NCBI GenBank assembly: GCA_013415865.1
Contig: CP058896.1
Span: 331,957 to 395,956 of the forward strand
Reading direction: 5' to 3'
DNA: 64,000 bases
DNA from: Methanomassiliicoccales archaeon
Lineage (GTDB): Archaea; Thermoplasmatota; Thermoplasmata; Methanomassiliicoccales; UBA472
The notes under the pieces are model-generated. The model did not search any database and was not told the DNA's origin. It saw nothing but the letters and a program-made list of their open reading frames with translations. Below are positions 12,026-42,032 of the stretch, piece after piece. Position 1 is the stretch's first letter; each line of letters opens with the position of its first letter. Both the position numbers and the translations under genes were made by a program.

Positions 12026-12091
12026 ATGGCTATCGAACTAGCTACCACTGATATGAAGTCCGTCATAACGAAGGATATGGACGAAACGTAG
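12026..12091 (+). CDS. possible 21-residue ORF with strong ribosome-binding site
   Basis: GGAGGG at 12015-12020 sits six bases before an ATG opening 21 codons (starting MAIELATTDM), closed by TAG. An AATATTAAAA element near 11985 is suitably placed as promoter. The TAG overlaps the AGGT element that precedes the next ORF (12097). It may be a small protein or a leader peptide for that gene. No homology is recognisable. Confidence 0.35.
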   Translation: MAIELATTDMKSVITKDMDET

Positions 12092-19530: not shown

Positions 19531-19555
19531 TAACACTTTTTTTTAATTCGTAATA
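19531..19555. promoter_or_regulatory. metal-responsive-type operator before cbiM (site 1)
   Basis: TAACAC (19531-19536), a 13-bp spacer and GTAATA (19550-19555) form an imperfect inverted repeat. It ends six bases before a TAAATACT TATA-like box at 19561-19568. The same 25-bp layout, including a T-run in the left spacer, recurs before cbiQ and before the methyltransferase at 36190. The total length and TATTA half-sites resemble NikR operators. The T8 run may also serve as the trp operon terminator. Confidence 0.6.
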
Positions 19556-19620
19556 ACATCTAAATACTCTGCAAAAAGATGCCCTATCCTAGGTTCATTC
19601 AACTATCGGAGGAGGAAAGA

Positions 19621-20295
19621 TTGCACATACCTGATGGGCTCATGGACCCGGTCGTCCTGTTGGCTGGCTGGGCCATATCTGTTCCTGTGATCGCCTATGC
19701 GGTCTCAAAGGTGAACAAGACTGTGGATGAGAAGAAGATGCCGTTCATGGCGATACTCGCTGCCGGAATCTTCGTTGCCCAGATGTTGAACTTTCCTGTG
19801 GGGGGAGGGACTACCGGACACCTCATAGGGGCGACCTTGGCGACGATCTTGCTCGGGGTGTATGGTTCGGTCGTGGTCATGACGGTCATATTGGTGATAC
19901 AGTGCCTCGTGTTCGGGGATGGGGGGCTGACGGCCCTTGGGCTGAACCTGCTCAATATGGCGGTGATAGCGCCGTTCGTAGCACATTTCATCTTGAAGAT
20001 AGCTGATGGAAAGAACAGGCCTGTCGCGACCTTTACGGCGTCCTGGGCCTCGGTGTTCATAGCGGCCACGGCCTGTGCTGTCCAGCTGGCCGTGAGCTTT
20101 GCGGTATCAGATGGGTCGTACGGGATCGATGGCATCGTGTCAATCCCTGCCATGATGGGCTGGCATGCCCTGATAGGGATCGGCGAGGCGATCATCACCG
20201 TGGGCGTGGTGAGCTTCCTGGCCAAGATCGCCCCAGAGATGCTAAAGATGAGACTAGGAGAGGCACGGGATGATGGTATGGAGGTGACCGCGTGA
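19621..20295 (+). CDS. cbiM: ECF-type cobalt/nickel transporter substrate-binding membrane protein CbiM/NikM
   Basis: CbiM/NikM is the metal-specific membrane component of Co/Ni ECF importers. Metal is held by the N-terminal amine, Met1, His2 and an internal His. The TTG at 19621 makes the protein start M-H-I-P-D-G, as the family requires, with GGAGGAGG upstream. The longer in-frame form from ATG 19579 would bury the metal site and starts before the predicted transcript. GGTTGHLIGA supplies the internal His, and about seven membrane segments follow. Cobalt versus nickel cannot be settled from sequence. Confidence 0.9.
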   Translation: MHIPDGLMDPVVLLAGWAISVPVIAYAVSKVNKTVDEKKMPFMAILAAGIFVAQMLNFPVGGGTTGHLIGATLATILLGVYGSVVVMTVILVIQCLVFGDGGLTALGLNLLNMAVIAPFVAHFILKIADGKNRPVATFTASWASVFIAATACAVQLAVSFAVSDGSYGIDGIVSIPAMMGWHALIGIGEAIITVGVVSFLAKIAPEMLKMRLGEARDDGMEVTA

Positions 20296-20573
20296 ACAAG
20301 AGATATGTCAAGGCGGTTATGGCGATACTTGTCGTCTTCGCCATAGGGCTTGTCGGTTACTACACCTTCTCTGCGGCCTACGGGGATGGGCTTGAGAAGA
20401 CAATGGAGGATAATGGTGTCAGCGAGGGAGAGCCCGTCTGGCAGGCCCCCCTTGACTACGGCGAGGACTATGTCGCCTCCCTTCTTATGGGGATCTTGGG
20501 CTTCGTTATCGTGCTCGCGGTCGTCCTGGCCTATCTCATGTTGGTCAAGGCAAGAAAGAGAAGGACCGATTGA
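20292..20573 (+). CDS. PDGLE-domain membrane subunit of the Co/Ni transporter
   Basis: The 93-residue protein has two membrane helices (about 8-26 and 62-84) flanking an outer loop with GDGLEKTMEDNG, matching the PDGLE domain of NikN/CbiN-type accessory subunits. These partner with CbiM/NikM and are needed for transport. The GTG start overlaps cbiM by four bases. The PDGLE type is commoner in nickel systems, which slightly favours nickel. Confidence 0.8.
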   Translation: MNKRYVKAVMAILVVFAIGLVGYYTFSAAYGDGLEKTMEDNGVSEGEPVWQAPLDYGEDYVASLLMGILGFVIVLAVVLAYLMLVKARKRRTD

Positions 20574-20583
20574 ATTTCTTTCC

Positions 20584-20621
20584 TGACGGGCAAAGTGACC
20601 CCGTCACGATAATACTTTTTT
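20584..20621 (+). terminator. hairpin plus T-run after the cbiM-PDGLE genes
   Basis: TGACGGG (20584-20590) pairs with CCCGTCA (20600-20606), and six Ts follow at 20616-20621. This could terminate the cbiM transcript. The T-run also belongs to the operator at 20610-20634. Confidence 0.45.
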
Positions 20622-20634
20622 CTTAAAAGTAACA
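20610..20634. promoter_or_regulatory. metal-responsive-type operator before cbiQ (site 2)
   Basis: TAATAC (20610-20615), 13 bp beginning TTTTT, then GTAACA (20629-20634). It lies directly before a GATATATA box at 20638-20645, the same operator-then-TATA order as before cbiM. It implies cbiQO has its own regulated promoter, with a leader of about 60 nt to the ATG at 20727. Confidence 0.55.
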
Positions 20635-20726
20635 AGAGATATATACTGGCGTATCGGTTCACAGCTTGCTCGATGCGCCCACCGCTATCGGAAGTGGTCT
20701 TTTACCGTTGGCTGAGGAGGTAAGAA

Positions 20727-21467
20727 ATGAGCCTGGATCATGATGAGGTCGACCGCTATGCAAAAAATTCACGTTTCTTTAAGTTCGACCCTCGAGTCAA
20801 GCTCGCCTCTGCCATCCTCTTCATATCTGCCGTGGCTTTGCTGAAGGACCTGACGGCATTATATCTGGCATTGATCTTCGCTATCATCATGGTCGAGCTG
20901 TCCGGGGTCCCGATGAGGCATATAGCGGAGGTCTATCTTCTGGCATTTCCGTTCGTCCTTTTTGCATTCATTACAATGTTGTTGACCTCTGGTATAGAGA
21001 ACGCCCTTGCCATGGCAATGAGGGTGTCCGCATCGGTCCTTGCCCTATTACTGGTGATATCTTCGACGCCGTTCTTCGGGACCTTGAGGGCATTAAGATG
21101 GTTCAAGGTGCCTCCGGTCATATGCAACCTTGTCCTTTTCACATACAGGTTCATATTCCTTCTGACGGACGAGCTATCAAGGATGAGGATGGCACGGAGG
21201 TCCCGAGGATTTCAGGGAGGAAGGAGCCTTCTCGACAAGGGTGCGTTCAAGACCATCTCATATACTATCGGCATGGTCTTTGTCAGGTCGAACTCCAGGG
21301 CCACCAGGATATATGATGCCCTCCTTTCAAGAGGCTATACAGGCGAGATAAGGACGATAGAGGACCTCAAGGTGGGGGCCAGGGATATCGCCCTAGCGGC
21401 CGTGTTCATATCCATCACGGTCATTTTGTTGGCGATCCAGATGGGGGCATTCAAATGGACGCTGTGA
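20727..21467 (+). CDS. cbiQ: ECF transporter energy-coupling membrane protein CbiQ (EcfT)
   Basis: CbiQ couples the ATPase to CbiM. The protein (246 residues) has about five membrane helices and the two EcfT coupling-helix motifs rich in Ala/Arg/Gly (MARRSRGFQGG and ALLSRGYTG). A strong GGAGGT lies seven bases before the ATG. It overlaps cbiO by 13 bases. Confidence 0.93.
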   Translation: MSLDHDEVDRYAKNSRFFKFDPRVKLASAILFISAVALLKDLTALYLALIFAIIMVELSGVPMRHIAEVYLLAFPFVLFAFITMLLTSGIENALAMAMRVSASVLALLLVISSTPFFGTLRALRWFKVPPVICNLVLFTYRFIFLLTDELSRMRMARRSRGFQGGRSLLDKGAFKTISYTIGMVFVRSNSRATRIYDALLSRGYTGEIRTIEDLKVGARDIALAAVFISITVILLAIQMGAFKWTL

Positions 21468-22270
21468 GGCTTCAGAACGTCTGGTACAGATATCCTGAGA
21501 GCCCGTATGCTCTCGAGGATATCAGCTTCACGTTGAGAGAGGGTGAGAGGGTGGCCCTCGTCGGCCCAAACGGGGCGGGAAAGAGCACCCTGCTGCACCT
21601 CATGGCAGGGCTCTATCTTCCAAGCAAAGGAACGGTGGAGATAGGCGGGACAAAGCTCACAAAACATGATGCGGTGAAGGCGAGACGGAAGGTCGGGTTC
21701 CTTTTCCAAGACCCTGACGACCAGATATTCATGCCCACTGTCTGGGAGGACGTCGCTTTTGGCCCTATCAACATGGGGCTTGCAGAAGAGGAGGTCAAGG
21801 ACCGTGTCGCGAGGGCGATGGAACAGGCGGGCATATCAGGGTTCTCGGACAGGGTGCCTCATAGGCTCTCTATCGGAGAGAAGAAACGTGTGGCGATCGC
21901 CGGCGTGCTGGCAATGTCACCCCCTATCTTATTGCTCGACGAACCGACGGCCAACCTCGACCCCCAAGGAAGAAGGGACCTTGTGAACATATTGCATTCC
22001 ATACCTCAAGGTTTCGTGTTGGCGACGCATGACCTGGGCGTGGCCTTCGAGCTAACCGAGCGGGTCGTGGTGCTCAAGAAAAAGGTGATCTACGACGGTG
22101 ATTTCCGCGGTCTTGTCGAGAACGATGAGGTGCTCAGGGAGGCGAACCTTGAGCTCCCGTCGTTCTCAAGGCTCATGATGAGATGGCGTGATGCGACAAA
22201 AAAGAACTTCAGACCCCCGATGACCGTCGAGGAATCGTTGGAGCTGTTGCTCAAGGACGACTGGGCCTGA
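21455..22270 (+). CDS. cbiO: ECF transporter ATPase CbiO
   Basis: This ABC ATPase powers metal uptake. Walker A GPNGAGKST, Q-loop FLFQDPDDQIF (EcfA type), signature LSIGEKKRVAIAG, Walker B ILLLDEPTANLD and a switch His in ATHD are all present. The length is 271 residues. Only one ATPase gene is present, so a homodimer is expected. It converges with hemD. Confidence 0.95.
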   Translation: MDAVRLQNVWYRYPESPYALEDISFTLREGERVALVGPNGAGKSTLLHLMAGLYLPSKGTVEIGGTKLTKHDAVKARRKVGFLFQDPDDQIFMPTVWEDVAFGPINMGLAEEEVKDRVARAMEQAGISGFSDRVPHRLSIGEKKRVAIAGVLAMSPPILLLDEPTANLDPQGRRDLVNILHSIPQGFVLATHDLGVAFELTERVVVLKKKVIYDGDFRGLVENDEVLREANLELPSFSRLMMRWRDATKKNFRPPMTVEESLELLLKDDWA

Positions 22271-36013: not shown

Positions 36014-36139
36014 GCCTTGAAAAATGTGCCAGATGGGGGTTGCGATCGGAGCTGTTCTCGTCCATGATGGACACTGAGACCGTCGTAAATGGGATCTGTT
36101 AACATCCATCGTGATCAGAACAGGCCCTGGTTATAATTT

Positions 36140-36164
36140 TATTACGAATTTTCAAAAAGTAATA
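36140..36164. promoter_or_regulatory. metal-responsive-type operator, perfect copy (site 3)
   Basis: TATTAC (36140-36145), 13 bp, GTAATA (36159-36164): a perfect 6-bp inverted repeat. Read on the minus strand it shares an AATTCGTAAT core and TTTTT run with the cbiM site. It lies immediately after a TTATAATTTT TATA element (36131-36140) and covers the predicted transcription start, a repressor position. Confidence 0.6.
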
Positions 36165-36189
36165 CTCTAATAATTTGAAATGCCTATGC

Positions 36190-37020
36190 ATGGCGGAAAG
36201 GTCGGTTCATTTGGATGCCTGGCAAAGGGAATGGATGGAAAAGGGGGAATTGTTGCCCGACCATCTGTTGGGCCGGACACCGATGGATATTGCTTCATTC
36301 TGGGATGGGGAAGCGGACCATTACGTATCTGGCCCCGGCTCGCTAAGTGAGGTGGACAAGGCCATCCTGACCTTGCTCGCACAGAACGGCGATCTCAAGG
36401 AGGAAGACCTCGTCCTCGACATCGGATGTGGTCCTGGCCAATATTCGAATTTTTTCGCTGGACTTGTGCGAGGCGTTGTGGCTTTGGATATCTCTAGCAA
36501 GATGATAGGGCATGCTATGGACCTATGCAGGAAAAACGGTCGGAACAACGTCGAATTCATGAACATGCCATGGGAGGACTTCAGCTCAGAGAGGTCTTTT
36601 GACCTTGTGTTCGCATCATTCTGCCCTGCGATATGCAACCTTGACGCATTGATAAAAATGGAATCGCTGTCAAGAAGGAGCTGTTGCATCGTTACAAGAG
36701 GAGGTCCGTGCCATGTGGACGAACATCTTCAGGCATTGGGCCTGTTACTCGGCATGAGGTTCTCCGACGAGGCGTATATGGCCCCCCTCATCATCGAAGC
36801 ACTGGAAGGACTGGGAAGAAGACCACGTTTGCATCATTTCAAGATCGATCGCCCTAAGGCCATTGACCGGAAGCTCTCCATGTCGATCCAGCGTTTCATC
36901 GCGGCTTACTCAAGGGGGATCGGGGAGGGCGATAAGGAGCTTTTTCATAGGATACTTTCCTCGATAAAATGCCCTCAGAGCATCGTCATGACCGTGATAA
37001 TTTGGTCCCCGCGCTTGTGA
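36190..37020 (+). CDS. class I SAM-dependent methyltransferase of unknown substrate
   Basis: The 276-residue protein has a Rossmann SAM-binding core: LVLDIGCGPGQYSNFFAG (motif I), VVALDIS, and FDLVFASFCPAI. A cysteine pair (SRRSCCIVTRGG) and a C-terminal helical extension are unusual. The ATG at 36190 is preferred over TTG 36175. It lies between the cobalamin and F430 operons, and its promoter carries the operator shared with the metal importer. That suggests a role in metal or tetrapyrrole metabolism, which is inference. The substrate cannot be read from the sequence. Confidence 0.75.
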   Translation: MAERSVHLDAWQREWMEKGELLPDHLLGRTPMDIASFWDGEADHYVSGPGSLSEVDKAILTLLAQNGDLKEEDLVLDIGCGPGQYSNFFAGLVRGVVALDISSKMIGHAMDLCRKNGRNNVEFMNMPWEDFSSERSFDLVFASFCPAICNLDALIKMESLSRRSCCIVTRGGPCHVDEHLQALGLLLGMRFSDEAYMAPLIIEALEGLGRRPRLHHFKIDRPKAIDRKLSMSIQRFIAAYSRGIGEGDKELFHRILSSIKCPQSIVMTVIIWSPRL

Positions 37021-37122: not shown

Positions 37123-37521
37123 ATGACAAAAGGAGTGCTAGTGGTAGGGCATGGGAGCAAGCTGCAGTTCAACAGGGACCTGGTTGTGCACATGGCCGAC
37201 GTCCTGGACCGTAGGAAGGAGTTCGGACCGGTGACAGCCGCCTTCATGCAGCTGAACGAGCCGACGATCAAGCAGGGCATAGAGAAGCTCGTAAGGATGG
37301 GGGTGGACGAGATCTACGTGCAACCGTGCTTCCTGGCATCAGGGATACATCTCACTGAGGACATCCCTGGGGAACTAGGGTTCAAGAAAGGGGATACAGC
37401 GGGTTCGATGGTGGTCGAAGGGAAGACCATCCAACTGAAGTATTGCGGACCGATCGGCGCAGATGACAGGATAGCAGATATCCTGGCCGACCGTATCAGA
37501 GAAAGGGTCAAGAAGGGTTGA
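37123..37521 (+). CDS. cfbA: sirohydrochlorin nickel/cobalt chelatase
   Basis: CfbA (CbiX-S) inserts nickel into sirohydrochlorin for F430 and can insert cobalt for cobalamin. The 132-residue short form has metal-binding H10 (VVGHGS) and H76 (ASGIHLTEDIP). TAGGTGG lies nine bases before the ATG, and TTTTATTT near 37071 is a TATA candidate. It heads the cfb operon and overlaps cfbE by four bases. No second chelatase is in the window. Confidence 0.95.
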   Translation: MTKGVLVVGHGSKLQFNRDLVVHMADVLDRRKEFGPVTAAFMQLNEPTIKQGIEKLVRMGVDEIYVQPCFLASGIHLTEDIPGELGFKKGDTAGSMVVEGKTIQLKYCGPIGADDRIADILADRIRERVKKG

Positions 37522-38816
37522 ACTTGAAAGTGTTGGTCCTCGACCAGACCCACGGCGGAGACAGGATCGGCCGGGAGCACAGGAGGCTCGGCCATGATGT
37601 CACTCTGGTGGACGTATACGGCACGATGAGCGCCGAGGAGAGGCGGGCGCTCAGGGACGAGGGGATCAGATGCGAGGTCAGGGCACCTCCAGAAAAGTTC
37701 GACCTGGCCATAGTACCCGTGCATTGTCCTGATAGGTTCCTGGCCGATGCCAGGTACGATGAGAGGATAACCCATCATGAGGCGGTAGGACGCCTGGTCA
37801 GGTTCAAGATGCCGGTCATCGAGGTGACGGGGGTCAGCGGCAAGACCTCGGCATGCCACATCATTGCGCATATGCTTTCCATGACAGGAAGGACCGTGCT
37901 GCTGCACACATCCCGCGGGGATCTACGCCTAAAAGGAGACAAGATAGAGGTAATAAAAGAGAAGACGAGCATCGCCCCCGCCTCGCTCATCGAACTTGCG
38001 GGTCTGGAAGGGTTCGATGTCGCAGTGCTGGAGGAAAGTCTAGGCGGTTGCGGCATCGGCGATGTATGTTGCATAACGAACCTGAACGATGACTATGGCA
38101 TCGCGGGCGGCACGAGGAAGGCCCTCGACGGCAAGGTCCAAATGGTCCGACTTGCGAAGAAGAAGGTCGTTTTCCCCGAGAGGGAGAGGGACCTTTGGTC
38201 CCCATATCTTCCAGAAGGGGTCGAGGACACCACCTTTGGGAGCGAGGGGGATGTCCATGTCGAGTTCGGCAGGGAACTTCAGCTGGGAGTGCCGCTGGAG
38301 TTGAGGGTCTTCGATGGTGGCTCAGTATACTCTGTCAGCCTTTCCAGCATGTTCTTGGCACCTGCATATACGAATGCTTTCGAGACATCTCTGGCCGCCA
38401 TGAAGGCCTTGGGGATCGACATGGAGGCCACCGTCAGGTCCCTCAGCTCGTTCAAGGGCGTACCTGGGAGGGGGGAGATAGAGCGAGAAGGCATGTGGTA
38501 CATGGTCCGCGAGAGGAATCCGGGGGTCGGGGCCAGGAGCATCGGCTGGAACATCTCGATACTTGAGGACCTGTACGGGATCTCGGACATAGGGCTCGTC
38601 ATCGACCCGGTCAATGCAAAGGTATGCGAGAAATTGGACATGCATGCGGTCCTGCGTGTTGTGGCCGAGAAACATTCGGTAAAGAAGGTCTATCTCTTCG
38701 AGAGAAGGTGTGGTGAGGGCAGACGATGGCCGGACCTAGAGAGGATCAAGAACGCCTATGAGGTCTGGGGGAAGCACAAGGTGGTTCTATGGTGCACCAA
38801 GGAGGGGTTCCTTTGA
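37518..38816 (+). CDS. cfbE: coenzyme F430 synthetase (Mur ligase-like)
   Basis: CfbE forms the cyclohexanone ring of F430 from 15,17(3)-seco-F430-17(3)-acid using ATP. It is a Mur-ligase relative with P-loop VTGVSGKTSACH (about residues 94-105), the central EESLGGCGIGDVCCITNLNDDY segment and a C-terminal ligase domain. The start is TTG 37518, in the cfbA stop. Identification rests on the Mur-like fold plus position among cfbA, D, C and B. Confidence 0.92.
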   Translation: MNLKVLVLDQTHGGDRIGREHRRLGHDVTLVDVYGTMSAEERRALRDEGIRCEVRAPPEKFDLAIVPVHCPDRFLADARYDERITHHEAVGRLVRFKMPVIEVTGVSGKTSACHIIAHMLSMTGRTVLLHTSRGDLRLKGDKIEVIKEKTSIAPASLIELAGLEGFDVAVLEESLGGCGIGDVCCITNLNDDYGIAGGTRKALDGKVQMVRLAKKKVVFPERERDLWSPYLPEGVEDTTFGSEGDVHVEFGRELQLGVPLELRVFDGGSVYSVSLSSMFLAPAYTNAFETSLAAMKALGIDMEATVRSLSSFKGVPGRGEIEREGMWYMVRERNPGVGARSIGWNISILEDLYGISDIGLVIDPVNAKVCEKLDMHAVLRVVAEKHSVKKVYLFERRCGEGRRWPDLERIKNAYEVWGKHKVVLWCTKEGFL

Positions 38817-39898
38817 ACGACATCCTGCACCCAAGGCCGAACCCGATAATAGCGGCGATGTACACCCTCCGTGACCTTGATGTGGACGTCATAATCATGC
38901 ATGGCCCTGCTGGCTGCGGCTTCATGGCCTCCAGGAGACTTGAGGAGGCGGGCGTGAGGGTCATCACGACCGGCATGCAGGAGAACGATCTGATCTTCGG
39001 GGCGGAGGACAAGCTCGCGAGGATACTCAAGAAGGTCGAGGAGGACTTCAGGCCCAAGCTCGTCGGTATCGTCGGCACCTGTGCCAGCATGATAATCGGA
39101 GAGAACCTCGACGGCGCGATAAAAAAGGCAGGGCTCAGAGCGAAGGTCATCCCCGTCGATACGCATGGATGTTCCGGACCTAATACCAGCGGGGCGATAA
39201 GGACGCTCGAGGTCGCGGCCGAGAGAGGCATCATCTCCAATGAGGAGTTCCTCAGACAGAAGGAGATGTTGGTCAGGGCCACCCTCATCGAAAAGGACAG
39301 GGGGATCACCTCCAAACAATACCTTGAACCTCATCCAGGCGTGACAAAGCTGACGGTCGCCCTCAGGATCGTCGATGCGCTGAGGCAGGGCAAGCGGGTC
39401 GCGGTGGTGCTCAACGCAAAGAAGGAGACCGCCTATGGCTTCGCTGACATCATGAGGGCCATGGAGGAGGCAAGGTCGAAGTTAGGTGGGGAGGTCGTCC
39501 ACATAGGAAACCTTGATCCGGATGTCGGACTGCCAAGGATCAGACGTTACGCCAGGAACATACTGAGGGACCTGGAGGCCGCCAATGTCAAGGTCGTGGA
39601 GCTGACCGGAGGCCTGGACGAGTACCCCGTGGCGGCCGAAAAGGCCTCGATGCTCCTACAGCAGGGCGGATATGACCTGAGGATAATCGCTGGCCTTCCT
39701 CACCATCTTACTGGTCTCCGGAAGGACGATGTGCTCGTGACCGACCAGCCCAGAGAGCTCAGGAACTACATACAGAACGGTTTCGAGCTGTCGGTCGGCG
39801 AGGTCACCACGCATGCGGACGTGATGAGGACGGACAAGGTCATCAGGAACGAGCTGGGGAACACCATCAGGGAGGTAGCGGAGAAGGGATACCGATGA
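38813..39898 (+). CDS. cfbD: Ni-sirohydrochlorin a,c-diamide reductive cyclase, catalytic subunit
   Basis: CfbD, a NifD-like protein, performs the six-electron reduction and lactam-ring formation in F430 synthesis. Nitrogenase-like segments include MHGPAGCGFMASRR, GIVGTCASMIIGENL and PVDTHGCSGPNTSGA. TTG 38813 is favoured: AAGGAGGGG lies four bases before it and it overlaps the cfbE stop as TTGA. An ATG at 38789 would add eight residues. Followed by its reductase cfbC. This is not a nitrogenase. Confidence 0.94.
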   Translation: MNDILHPRPNPIIAAMYTLRDLDVDVIIMHGPAGCGFMASRRLEEAGVRVITTGMQENDLIFGAEDKLARILKKVEEDFRPKLVGIVGTCASMIIGENLDGAIKKAGLRAKVIPVDTHGCSGPNTSGAIRTLEVAAERGIISNEEFLRQKEMLVRATLIEKDRGITSKQYLEPHPGVTKLTVALRIVDALRQGKRVAVVLNAKKETAYGFADIMRAMEEARSKLGGEVVHIGNLDPDVGLPRIRRYARNILRDLEAANVKVVELTGGLDEYPVAAEKASMLLQQGGYDLRIIAGLPHHLTGLRKDDVLVTDQPRELRNYIQNGFELSVGEVTTHADVMRTDKVIRNELGNTIREVAEKGYR

Positions 39899-40686
39899 GA
39901 CAGATCGCAATATACGGAAAGGGAGGGATCGGGAAGAGCACGATATCTGCGAACCTCGCGGCCTGCTTCGCCGAGATGGGCAAACGGACGTGGTATATTG
40001 GATGCGACCCAAAGGCCGACGGCTCGATGACGCTGCTGGGAGGAAGGAAGGTGCCTACGTTCCTCGAACAGATGAAGGACGGCCTTCGGCCAAAGGACTA
40101 CGAGGTCTCAGTGGGCTATAAGGGCGTCAGATGCATAGAGGTCGGCGGACCAATGGCTGGGGTAGGGTGCGCTGGAAGGGGGATAATCGTTGCAGTGCAG
40201 GCCCTTTCGAGGGACCACTTCAATGAGGAGATCGATGTCATCATCTACGATGTTCCTGGGGATGTCGTGTGCGGGGGCTTTGCCGTACCTCTCAGAGAGA
40301 AGTACGCCAATGAGGTCTACATCGTCACCTCGGGAGAGTACTTGGCCATGTATGCGGCCAATAACATCGCAAGGGGCCTTAACAACCTTGGCGTCAACCT
40401 TGGCGGGCTGATCTGCAATTCAAGAGAGGTCTTGAAGGAAAGGGAGGCGGTAGAGGCCTTCGCGTCACATATTGGTTCAAGGATGATCGGTTTCATCCCC
40501 AGGGACCCTATGGTCAGGGTCTGCGAGAACAAGGGAAGGACGGTCATTGAGTGCGAGCCCTACAGTGCCCAGGCCGAAGAGTATCGCAGACTGTCCAGGG
40601 CGGTCTGGGAAAATGACAGGTTCTCTGTCCCGAGCCCGATGGACCCGGAATCCCTCAGGCAGCTCCTCAGGGAGGTCTCAGGATGA
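39895..40686 (+). CDS. cfbC: Ni-sirohydrochlorin a,c-diamide reductive cyclase, reductase (NifH-like)
   Basis: CfbC delivers electrons to CfbD with ATP hydrolysis. NifH features are intact: P-loop GKGGIGKST (8-16), 4Fe-4S ligands C92 (GVGCAGRG) and C126 (GDVVCGGF), and switch DPKADGSM. The length of 263 residues is normal. It overlaps cfbD and cfbB by four bases each. Confidence 0.95.
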   Translation: MRQIAIYGKGGIGKSTISANLAACFAEMGKRTWYIGCDPKADGSMTLLGGRKVPTFLEQMKDGLRPKDYEVSVGYKGVRCIEVGGPMAGVGCAGRGIIVAVQALSRDHFNEEIDVIIYDVPGDVVCGGFAVPLREKYANEVYIVTSGEYLAMYAANNIARGLNNLGVNLGGLICNSREVLKEREAVEAFASHIGSRMIGFIPRDPMVRVCENKGRTVIECEPYSAQAEEYRRLSRAVWENDRFSVPSPMDPESLRQLLREVSG

Positions 40687-42032
40687 CATCGAGAAGGATC
40701 GTGATCGCTGGGGCGGGAAGCGGTGTCGGGAAGACGACGATAGCCACGGGCATAATGTCATTGCTCTCGAAGAGGATGAAGGTCCAGGCGTTCAAGGTCG
40801 GCCCGGACTTCATCGATCCCATGTTCCATTCCGCGGCCACAGGCAGACCGTCGAGGAATTTGGACTCGTTCTTCATGGATGAGAAGACCTTGAAGAACCT
40901 TTATGGATGGGCCACAAGGGACGCGGACATGGCAGTGATAGAGGGCGTGAGAGGATTGTATGATGGCCTCACCTCAACCGGTGACATTGGGAGCACGGCC
41001 GAGATCGCGAAGCTGCTCAGGGCGCCTGTCGTGCTCGTCGTCAACGCAAGGAGTCTTGCGAAGAGCGCCGCGGCACATGTGCTCGGCTTCAAGATGCTGG
41101 ACCCTGAGGTCCGGATCGACGGTGTCATCCTGAACCATGTTGCCGGGGCGCGTCATCGCGAGAAGGCCAAGGAGGCCGTCGAAAGGCTGACGGGAACAAA
41201 GGTCATCGGATGCATAGAAAGAAGGAGGGAGAGGCTGCCAGAGCGGCATCTTGGACTTGTCACGGTCCCAGAGAAGGAGGATGTCGGGGCGACGATGAGG
41301 CAGGTCGAGGAGCTTGCCATGGAGGTCGATATGGACTCTCTCCTGGCCATCGCTGAAGGTGCCCCTGACATACAGCTTGACGAGAGATGTCCCTACCCAA
41401 AGGCATCGAGGGCCGGCGTCAAGGTCGCGGTCCCCAGGGACAGGGCATTCTCTTTCTACTATCACGAGAACATAGAATCGATACAGATGGCCGGTGGGGA
41501 GGTCGTGTTCTTCCGGCCGACGGAGGGCGATAGGCTGCCAGATGCTGATGCCTATTACATCGGCGGTGGCTACCCTGAGATCTACGCGGGACAGATATCC
41601 AGGAACAAGGATTTCAGGGATGGGCTCCTTGCGGCCTCAGAAGAGGGGAAACTGATATATGGAGAGTGCGGAGGCCTGATGACCCTTTGCAAGAGGATCA
41701 TCGACGGGCCATCTGGCGCCCCGATGGCCGGGGTCTTCGATGTCGATGCCGAGCTGACCGTCGACAGGCAAGGACTGGCATATGTCAGGGCGAAGGCCAC
41801 CGAGAAGAACTTCCTGTTCCCAGGCATGGACATAAGGGGGCACGAGTTCCATTACTCGAGGTTGGTGCCCCTGCCGACTGGGCCCTATGCGTTCGATGTG
41901 CAGAGGGGCACGGGCATCGACGGGTCGCACGATGGCCTCATCAAGAGGAGGACGATAGGGACCTATATGCACCAGCATGCCCTGGCGAACAAGGCGTGGG
42001 GCGGAGCGTTCGTGCGAGAGGCCGCTTTGTGA
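40683..42032 (+). CDS. cfbB: Ni-sirohydrochlorin a,c-diamide synthase
   Basis: CfbB amidates the a and c side chains of Ni-sirohydrochlorin. It has the CbiA architecture: P-loop GAGSGVGKTTIATG, FKVGPDFIDPMFHSAATG, and an amidotransferase domain with GGGYPEIYA and nucleophile YGECGGLMTL. The 449 residues parallel CbiA at 34.7 kb. Placement with cfbA, C, D and E makes the F430 assignment. It ends the cfb operon and converges with a methyltransferase. Confidence 0.94.
   Translation: MTSRRIVIAGAGSGVGKTTIATGIMSLLSKRMKVQAFKVGPDFIDPMFHSAATGRPSRNLDSFFMDEKTLKNLYGWATRDADMAVIEGVRGLYDGLTSTGDIGSTAEIAKLLRAPVVLVVNARSLAKSAAAHVLGFKMLDPEVRIDGVILNHVAGARHREKAKEAVERLTGTKVIGCIERRRERLPERHLGLVTVPEKEDVGATMRQVEELAMEVDMDSLLAIAEGAPDIQLDERCPYPKASRAGVKVAVPRDRAFSFYYHENIESIQMAGGEVVFFRPTEGDRLPDADAYYIGGGYPEIYAGQISRNKDFRDGLLAASEEGKLIYGECGGLMTLCKRIIDGPSGAPMAGVFDVDAELTVDRQGLAYVRAKATEKNFLFPGMDIRGHEFHYSRLVPLPTGPYAFDVQRGTGIDGSHDGLIKRRTIGTYMHQHALANKAWGGAFVREAAL

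Follow-up and report, generated by a model that had tools for sequence, protein, structure and literature searches.

A probable NikR-type regulon in the Methanomassiliicoccales, with palindromic sites before a cobalt/nickel importer and, in one species, before a string of F430 genes

Across the archaeal order Methanomassiliicoccales, cbiM is immediately preceded by a 25-bp palindrome, which together with related sites very probably marks a NikR-type regulon, a regulatory switch of a familiar kind. Our starting point was a 64-kb window (the whole stretch of DNA that was analysed) from a 1.82-Mb genome, here called G000, which encodes McrA and is therefore that of a methanogen. We consider it quite likely that the sites are operators of NikR1, the canonical NikR of this genome, and that they serve to repress the Co/Ni importer (Table 1). 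What may be new here is a possible link between NikR and F430, as well as a possible move of the operator from one side of the TATA box to the other.

Table 1. Genes, predicted operators and promoter elements discussed in the text. Positions are those of the window unless a contig is given.
Feature	Position	Strand	Evidence and remarks
Operator 1, TAACAC-N13-GTAATA, before cbiM	19531..19555	+	Rank 1 by matrix from other genera and families; G001 and G004 have similar sequence at same position
TATA-like box CTAAATA, just 3′ of operator 1	19560..19566	+	Sequence; CTAAATA follows the operator in G004 too
cbiM, Co/Ni ECF importer S component	19621..20295	+	PF01891 E=1.1e-60; TTG start, MHIPDG...
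cbiN-like small membrane protein	20292..20573	+	Weak NCBIfam CbiN match; between cbiM and cbiQ; tblastn orthologs in relatives
Operator 2, putative, weak, between cbiN and cbiQ	20610..20634	+	Rank 3, score 11.8; 9/5000 shuffles; G004 lacks left half
TATA-like box GATATATA after operator 2	20638..20645	+	Sequence; GATAAATA at equivalent place in G004
cbiQ, ECF transporter T component	20727..21467	+	PF02361 E=3.1e-24
cbiO, ECF transporter ATPase	21455..22270	+	PF00005 E=2.4e-37
Operator 3, perfect TATTAC-N13-GTAATA	36140..36164	+	Rank 2 in window; 0/5000 shuffles
TATA-like CTAATAATT, 3′ of operator 3	36167..36175	+	Sequence only
Second TATA-like candidate TTATAATTT, touching left edge of operator 3	36131-36139		Sequence only
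SAM-dependent methyltransferase, first gene behind operator 3	36190..37020	+	PF13649 E=2.2e-13
cfbA, sirohydrochlorin nickelochelatase	37123..37521	+	NF033198 above cut-off
cfbE, coenzyme F430 synthase	37518..38816	+	NF033197 above cut-off
cfbD, Ni-sirohydrochlorin a,c-diamide reductive cyclase	38789..39898	+	TIGR03282 above cut-off
cfbC, reductase subunit	39895..40686	+	Top NCBIfam hit NF033200, short of its strict cut-off; PF00142
cfbB, Ni-sirohydrochlorin a,c-diamide synthase	40683..42032	+	Top NCBIfam hit NF033195, short of its strict cut-off; passes the cut-off of TIGR00379 cobB
nikR1	G000:C1:1710912-1711397	-	162 aa; outside window
nikR2, divergent NikR-like protein	G000:C1:609655-610023 (locus L183)		127 aa; separate divergent clade; beside ZnuA-like gene

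A preliminary description of this DNA had proposed TATTAC-N13-GTAATA as an operator shared by three places, the one at 36140 being a perfect copy, with a TATA-like box shortly after each of the other two. Sites with the 13-bp spacing are indeed present at all three. They read TAACACTTTTTTTTAATTCGTAATA (19531), TAATACTTTTTTCTTAAAAGTAACA (20610) and TATTACGAATTTTCAAAAAGTAATA (36140); the last is the sole exact copy in the window, the other two having two mismatches each, and every one is followed within a few bp by a TATA-like box. The palindrome is real, but its consensus is longer than the proposed one and different: the cbiM promoters of relatives carry TAACACGAAT-N5-ATTCGTGTTA, of which TATTAC-N13-GTAATA is a variant.

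For scoring, a 25-position matrix was built from 22 cbiM-promoter sites of relatives, with the window's own genus left out. The half-sites of these 22 form the inverted repeat TAACAC-N13-GTGTTA, at a fixed spacing. Conservation before orthologous cbiM genes had been suggested as a check, and it extends over the order: 25 of 28 cbiM upstream regions, most of which had served to train the matrix, contain the palindrome. A matrix restricted in training to families f5 and f6 puts the best position of the whole locus within the 150 nt that precede cbiM for every one of the 15 loci of the window's family, ten of which score at least 19.8. Regulon sites in relatives were also found with a covariance model (R1) based on sequence only, which under strict filters missed the sites of G000.

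A NikR-like regulator, with its gene somewhere in the genome, was the leading idea of the preliminary description, and it is borne out by two NikR_C proteins encoded in G000, NikR1 and NikR2, the first of which is canonical. NikR1 joins an N-terminal ribbon-helix-helix to a C-terminal, ACT-like NikR_C domain (E=7.5e-29), scores 166 bits against an NCBIfam NikR cut-off of 105, and aligns over its full length with the solved NikRs 2bj1 of Pyrococcus (E=1.9e-32) and 1q5v of E. coli. The residues aligned with E. coli His76, His87, His89 and Cys95, the square-planar nickel ligands, are kept in NikR1 and its orthologs (QH, HIH and C), and within the order there is hardly any variation in the DNA-reading strand, TRIG[VI]S[LI]EP.

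The arrangement of genes in outgroups is informative as well. At loci L041, L043, L044, L048 and L055, nikR is divergent from cbiM and the palindrome, imperfect in L043, L044 and L055, lies between them. A sister form of the operator, TATTACGAA with N14 spacing, is found at L051, L053, L056, L061 and L062. Two NikR subtypes accompany the two operator forms, N13 TAACACG versus N14 TATTACGAA, and differ in the DNA-reading beta-strand, which is R[VI]SLS rather than R[VFI]G[VI]S in NikRs adjacent to the N14 form.

In delta-proteobacteria the published NikR signals take the form GTGTTAC-N13/14-GTAACAC or, reversed, GTAACAC-N13-GTGTTAC (PMC545781). Our sites resemble them in the TAACAC/GTGTTA half-sites, in the N13 spacing, in their place upstream of Nik/CbiMNQO-type importers and in having nikR beside the importer in some genomes. 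Unlike them, they are set in archaeal TATA/BRE promoters, contain a conserved inner GAAT/ATTC, and extend to a methyltransferase-F430 gene string. The E. coli NikR operator of nikABCDE is GTATGA-N16-TCATAC (PMC7055735). It too is a long inverted repeat, in which each of two ribbon-helix-helix dimers has its half-site, targets a Ni importer and is read by a protein of the same family with the same metal ligands, whereas its half-site letters are different, its importer is of the ABC peptide type and its promoter is bacterial. NikR sites were also predicted in eight methanogens by Rodionov et al. 2006, as cited in PMC10617489; as far as that citation goes, the likeness lies in the pairing of NikR with Cbi/NikMNQO importers in methanogens.

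The adjacency of nikR in outgroups, the score above the cut-off, the metal ligands and the delta-proteobacterial signals together make NikR1 the best candidate regulator, and the idea of a NikR regulon is further supported by the conservation at cbiM, by the Ni/Co-type genes that follow the sites and by the McrA of this genome. Several observations point the other way. In G000, nikR1 has neither a metal gene beside it nor a site of its own, and a site is likewise absent from the second NikM-type importer. In genus g21 the motif sits between convergent genes, in a gap where no downstream gene is evident. Moreover, four draft genomes of 110-240 contigs (G031, G038, G047 and G053) have the site, and NikR2 alone was detected in them. 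The operator might thus be read by NikR2, whose genes occur in all four of these drafts, or by a metal regulator of another kind, for instance one of the Fur family, a gene for which stands directly 5′ of the second NikM importer. We think this improbable, since the NikRs adjoining cbiM at L041 and L048 cluster in the tree with NikR1 and not with NikR2, and in G000 neither the NikR2-znuA gap nor the second NikM locus contains the motif. Autoregulation of nikR1 was considered and rejected, as by half-site criteria no site lies within ~1.5 kb of nikR1 in 30 genomes.

Not every site is equally convincing. A loose half-site pattern with up to three mismatches occurs 8 times in the window where 6.5 are expected, which is no enrichment. 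The strict frame TANNAC-N13-GTNNTA gives three places against 0.16 expected; this trio includes an unrelated place at 12043, and 20610 does not fit the frame. In the genome, 23 places match the half-site pattern with at most one mismatch, an unremarkable number. With no excess in the loose count or in the genome count, the half-site pattern alone would have failed the refutation test set by the preliminary description, a scan for more copies than expected. Matrix scoring on the genome scale covered pattern-selected places of G000, and two of them were discarded: G000:C1:1760702, which fits the half-sites but lies inside a long FeoB-like ORF and has a low matrix score (9.7), and 548663, which falls within an ORF. 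A search of the plasmid collection gave no match.

It is the full matrix that decides the matter. Among the ~64,000 positions of the window, 19531, 36140 and 20610 take ranks 1, 2 and 3 (scores 26.2, 22.5 and 11.8), and a third-order Markov null predicts 0, 0 and 0.12 positions per 64 kb at these scores. Shuffles of the intergenic gaps reached the score of the site in none of 5000 cases for 19531 and 36140 and in 9 of 5000 for 20610. With the matrix from f5 and f6 alone, 19531 and 36140 keep ranks 1 and 2, and 20610 falls to rank 6. On the ranks, the null and the shuffles, 19531 and 36140 are very strong and 20610 is marginal.

One could still argue that the sites are AT-rich BRE/TATA promoter context that mimics a palindrome, and that only the cbiM site is meaningful, as raw half-site patterns are not enriched in the window or genome and the cbiQ gap of G004 has a right half and TATA only. 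As a general account this is very improbable, given that 19531 and 36140 exceed all 5000 gap shuffles with a matrix derived from other genera and families. For 20610 specifically it may hold: in G004, the closest relative with a similar cbiN-cbiQ gap, the palindrome is not conserved. Of the two operators that had been proposed for the Co/Ni importer, the one before cbiM is strong and certainly a conserved element, and the one before cbiQ is weak and doubtful as an operator. Site 36140 is very likely such an element as well.

The position of the operator in the promoter differs between lineages. In most relatives a TATA-like box stands ~15-20 nt before the operator, and in many 13-15 nt separate the end of the operator from the start codon, so that in most relatives it would overlie the transcription start. 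G000 and G004 instead have the TATA-like box after the operator, and in G001 the distance from operator to start codon equals that in these two genomes. That the palindrome is an RNA hairpin or leader riboswitch is barely credible: although it is a 10-bp inverted repeat close to the start codon in many relatives, it shows no excess covariation (77.3% of cells paired versus 76.3% when shuffled, and 65 of 500 shuffles gave a covariation score as high), it would be left out of the transcript in the window's own genus, where it lies upstream of the TATA-like box, and the window has no Rfam match.

Both geometries are compatible with metal-dependent repression by NikR. In the scheme that we propose, the binding, the repression, the effector metal and the cotranscription of the cfb genes are all deduced from sequence. 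A NikR tetramer loaded with Ni(II), or perhaps Co(II), would grip both TAACACG-type half-sites through its two ribbon-helix-helix dimers, and on the 25-bp palindrome it would repress transcription. At cbiM of G000 the operator abuts the TFB-recognition/TATA region, where bound NikR may exclude TBP and TFB; in most relatives, just after the TATA box and over the transcription start, it may block RNA polymerase. When metal is scarce, apo-NikR would release the operator and the importer would be made. An operator on either side of the TATA box offers a natural comparison of two geometries of repression.

Site 36140 would place the same switch before the methyltransferase and, via read-through, probably cfbA-cfbE-cfbD-cfbC-cfbB, the string of F430 pathway genes that follows. 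Control of the cfb genes by NikR1 would depend on read-through past the 102-bp gap between methyltransferase and cfbA, which contains a TATA-like stretch of its own. The methyltransferase itself is a plausible target, because its distant homologs in relatives lie beside motif-carrying genes of metal-type ABC importers. In the relatives tested, the surroundings of cfbA contained no site, which leaves NikR control of the F430 genes as a suggestion for one species. MCR needs F430, and nickel therefore limits methane formation. If the proposal is true, the switch ties cofactor synthesis to metal supply, and F430 production in this species tracks that supply. We found no description of a NikR switch before F430 genes in the literature searched, a search whose scope excluded most subscription journals.

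The genes behind the motif in relatives suggest a wider regulon. They include CooC-like P-loop ATPases, substrate-binding proteins of the Peripla_BP_2 or dockerin type, a FecCD permease, SAM methyltransferases and a cbiT-like gene, and the motif also lies between divergent FmdE and substrate-binding genes. Genes of the kinds that had been expected behind the motif, those for Ni/Co, F430 and B12, are thus found among these and in the F430 string, although the raw genome scan shows no excess. More tentatively, and with the odds against it as a whole, one NikR could govern ECF import, methyltransferase-linked importers of metal (possibly a metal chelate), nickel insertion into CODH and, here, F430 synthesis, the operator having moved in the window's lineage from a place over the transcription start to one beyond the TATA box. 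The order-wide consensus is a ready tool for finding the Ni/Co regulons of uncultured methanogens.

Some further observations were made along the way. The second NikM/CbiM-type importer (G000:C1:509272-509916, minus strand, L182) lies directly 3′ of a Fur-family gene of the same direction, as read by eye, and this arrangement, likewise without a NikR motif, recurs in G001 and G002; the Fur-family gene is possibly a Nur-like nickel switch. The intergenic region between the NikR2 gene and the ZnuA-like gene is AT-rich and holds a long inverted repeat, TTAGAATATTA...TAATATTCTAA. In genus g21, which belongs to another family, the motif is found beside topA and near nikR1 (L231 7005-7029, L232 7474-7498 and L233 5941-5965). 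The window's species has the whole cfb string, yet eight McrA-positive relatives with genomes 91-99% complete (G001, G002, G003, G007, G008, G009, G012 and G023) gave no match to CbiX/CfbA or CfbD, which reflects either a loss in the search or an F430 source not yet recognised; G002 has a CfbE-like gene near cbiM. Finally, at L234, L238, L243 and L250 the motif recurs in clusters that combine an ABC ATPase and a SAM methyltransferase with substrate-binding proteins bearing dockerin/EF-like repeats, and these clusters may import a metal chelate.
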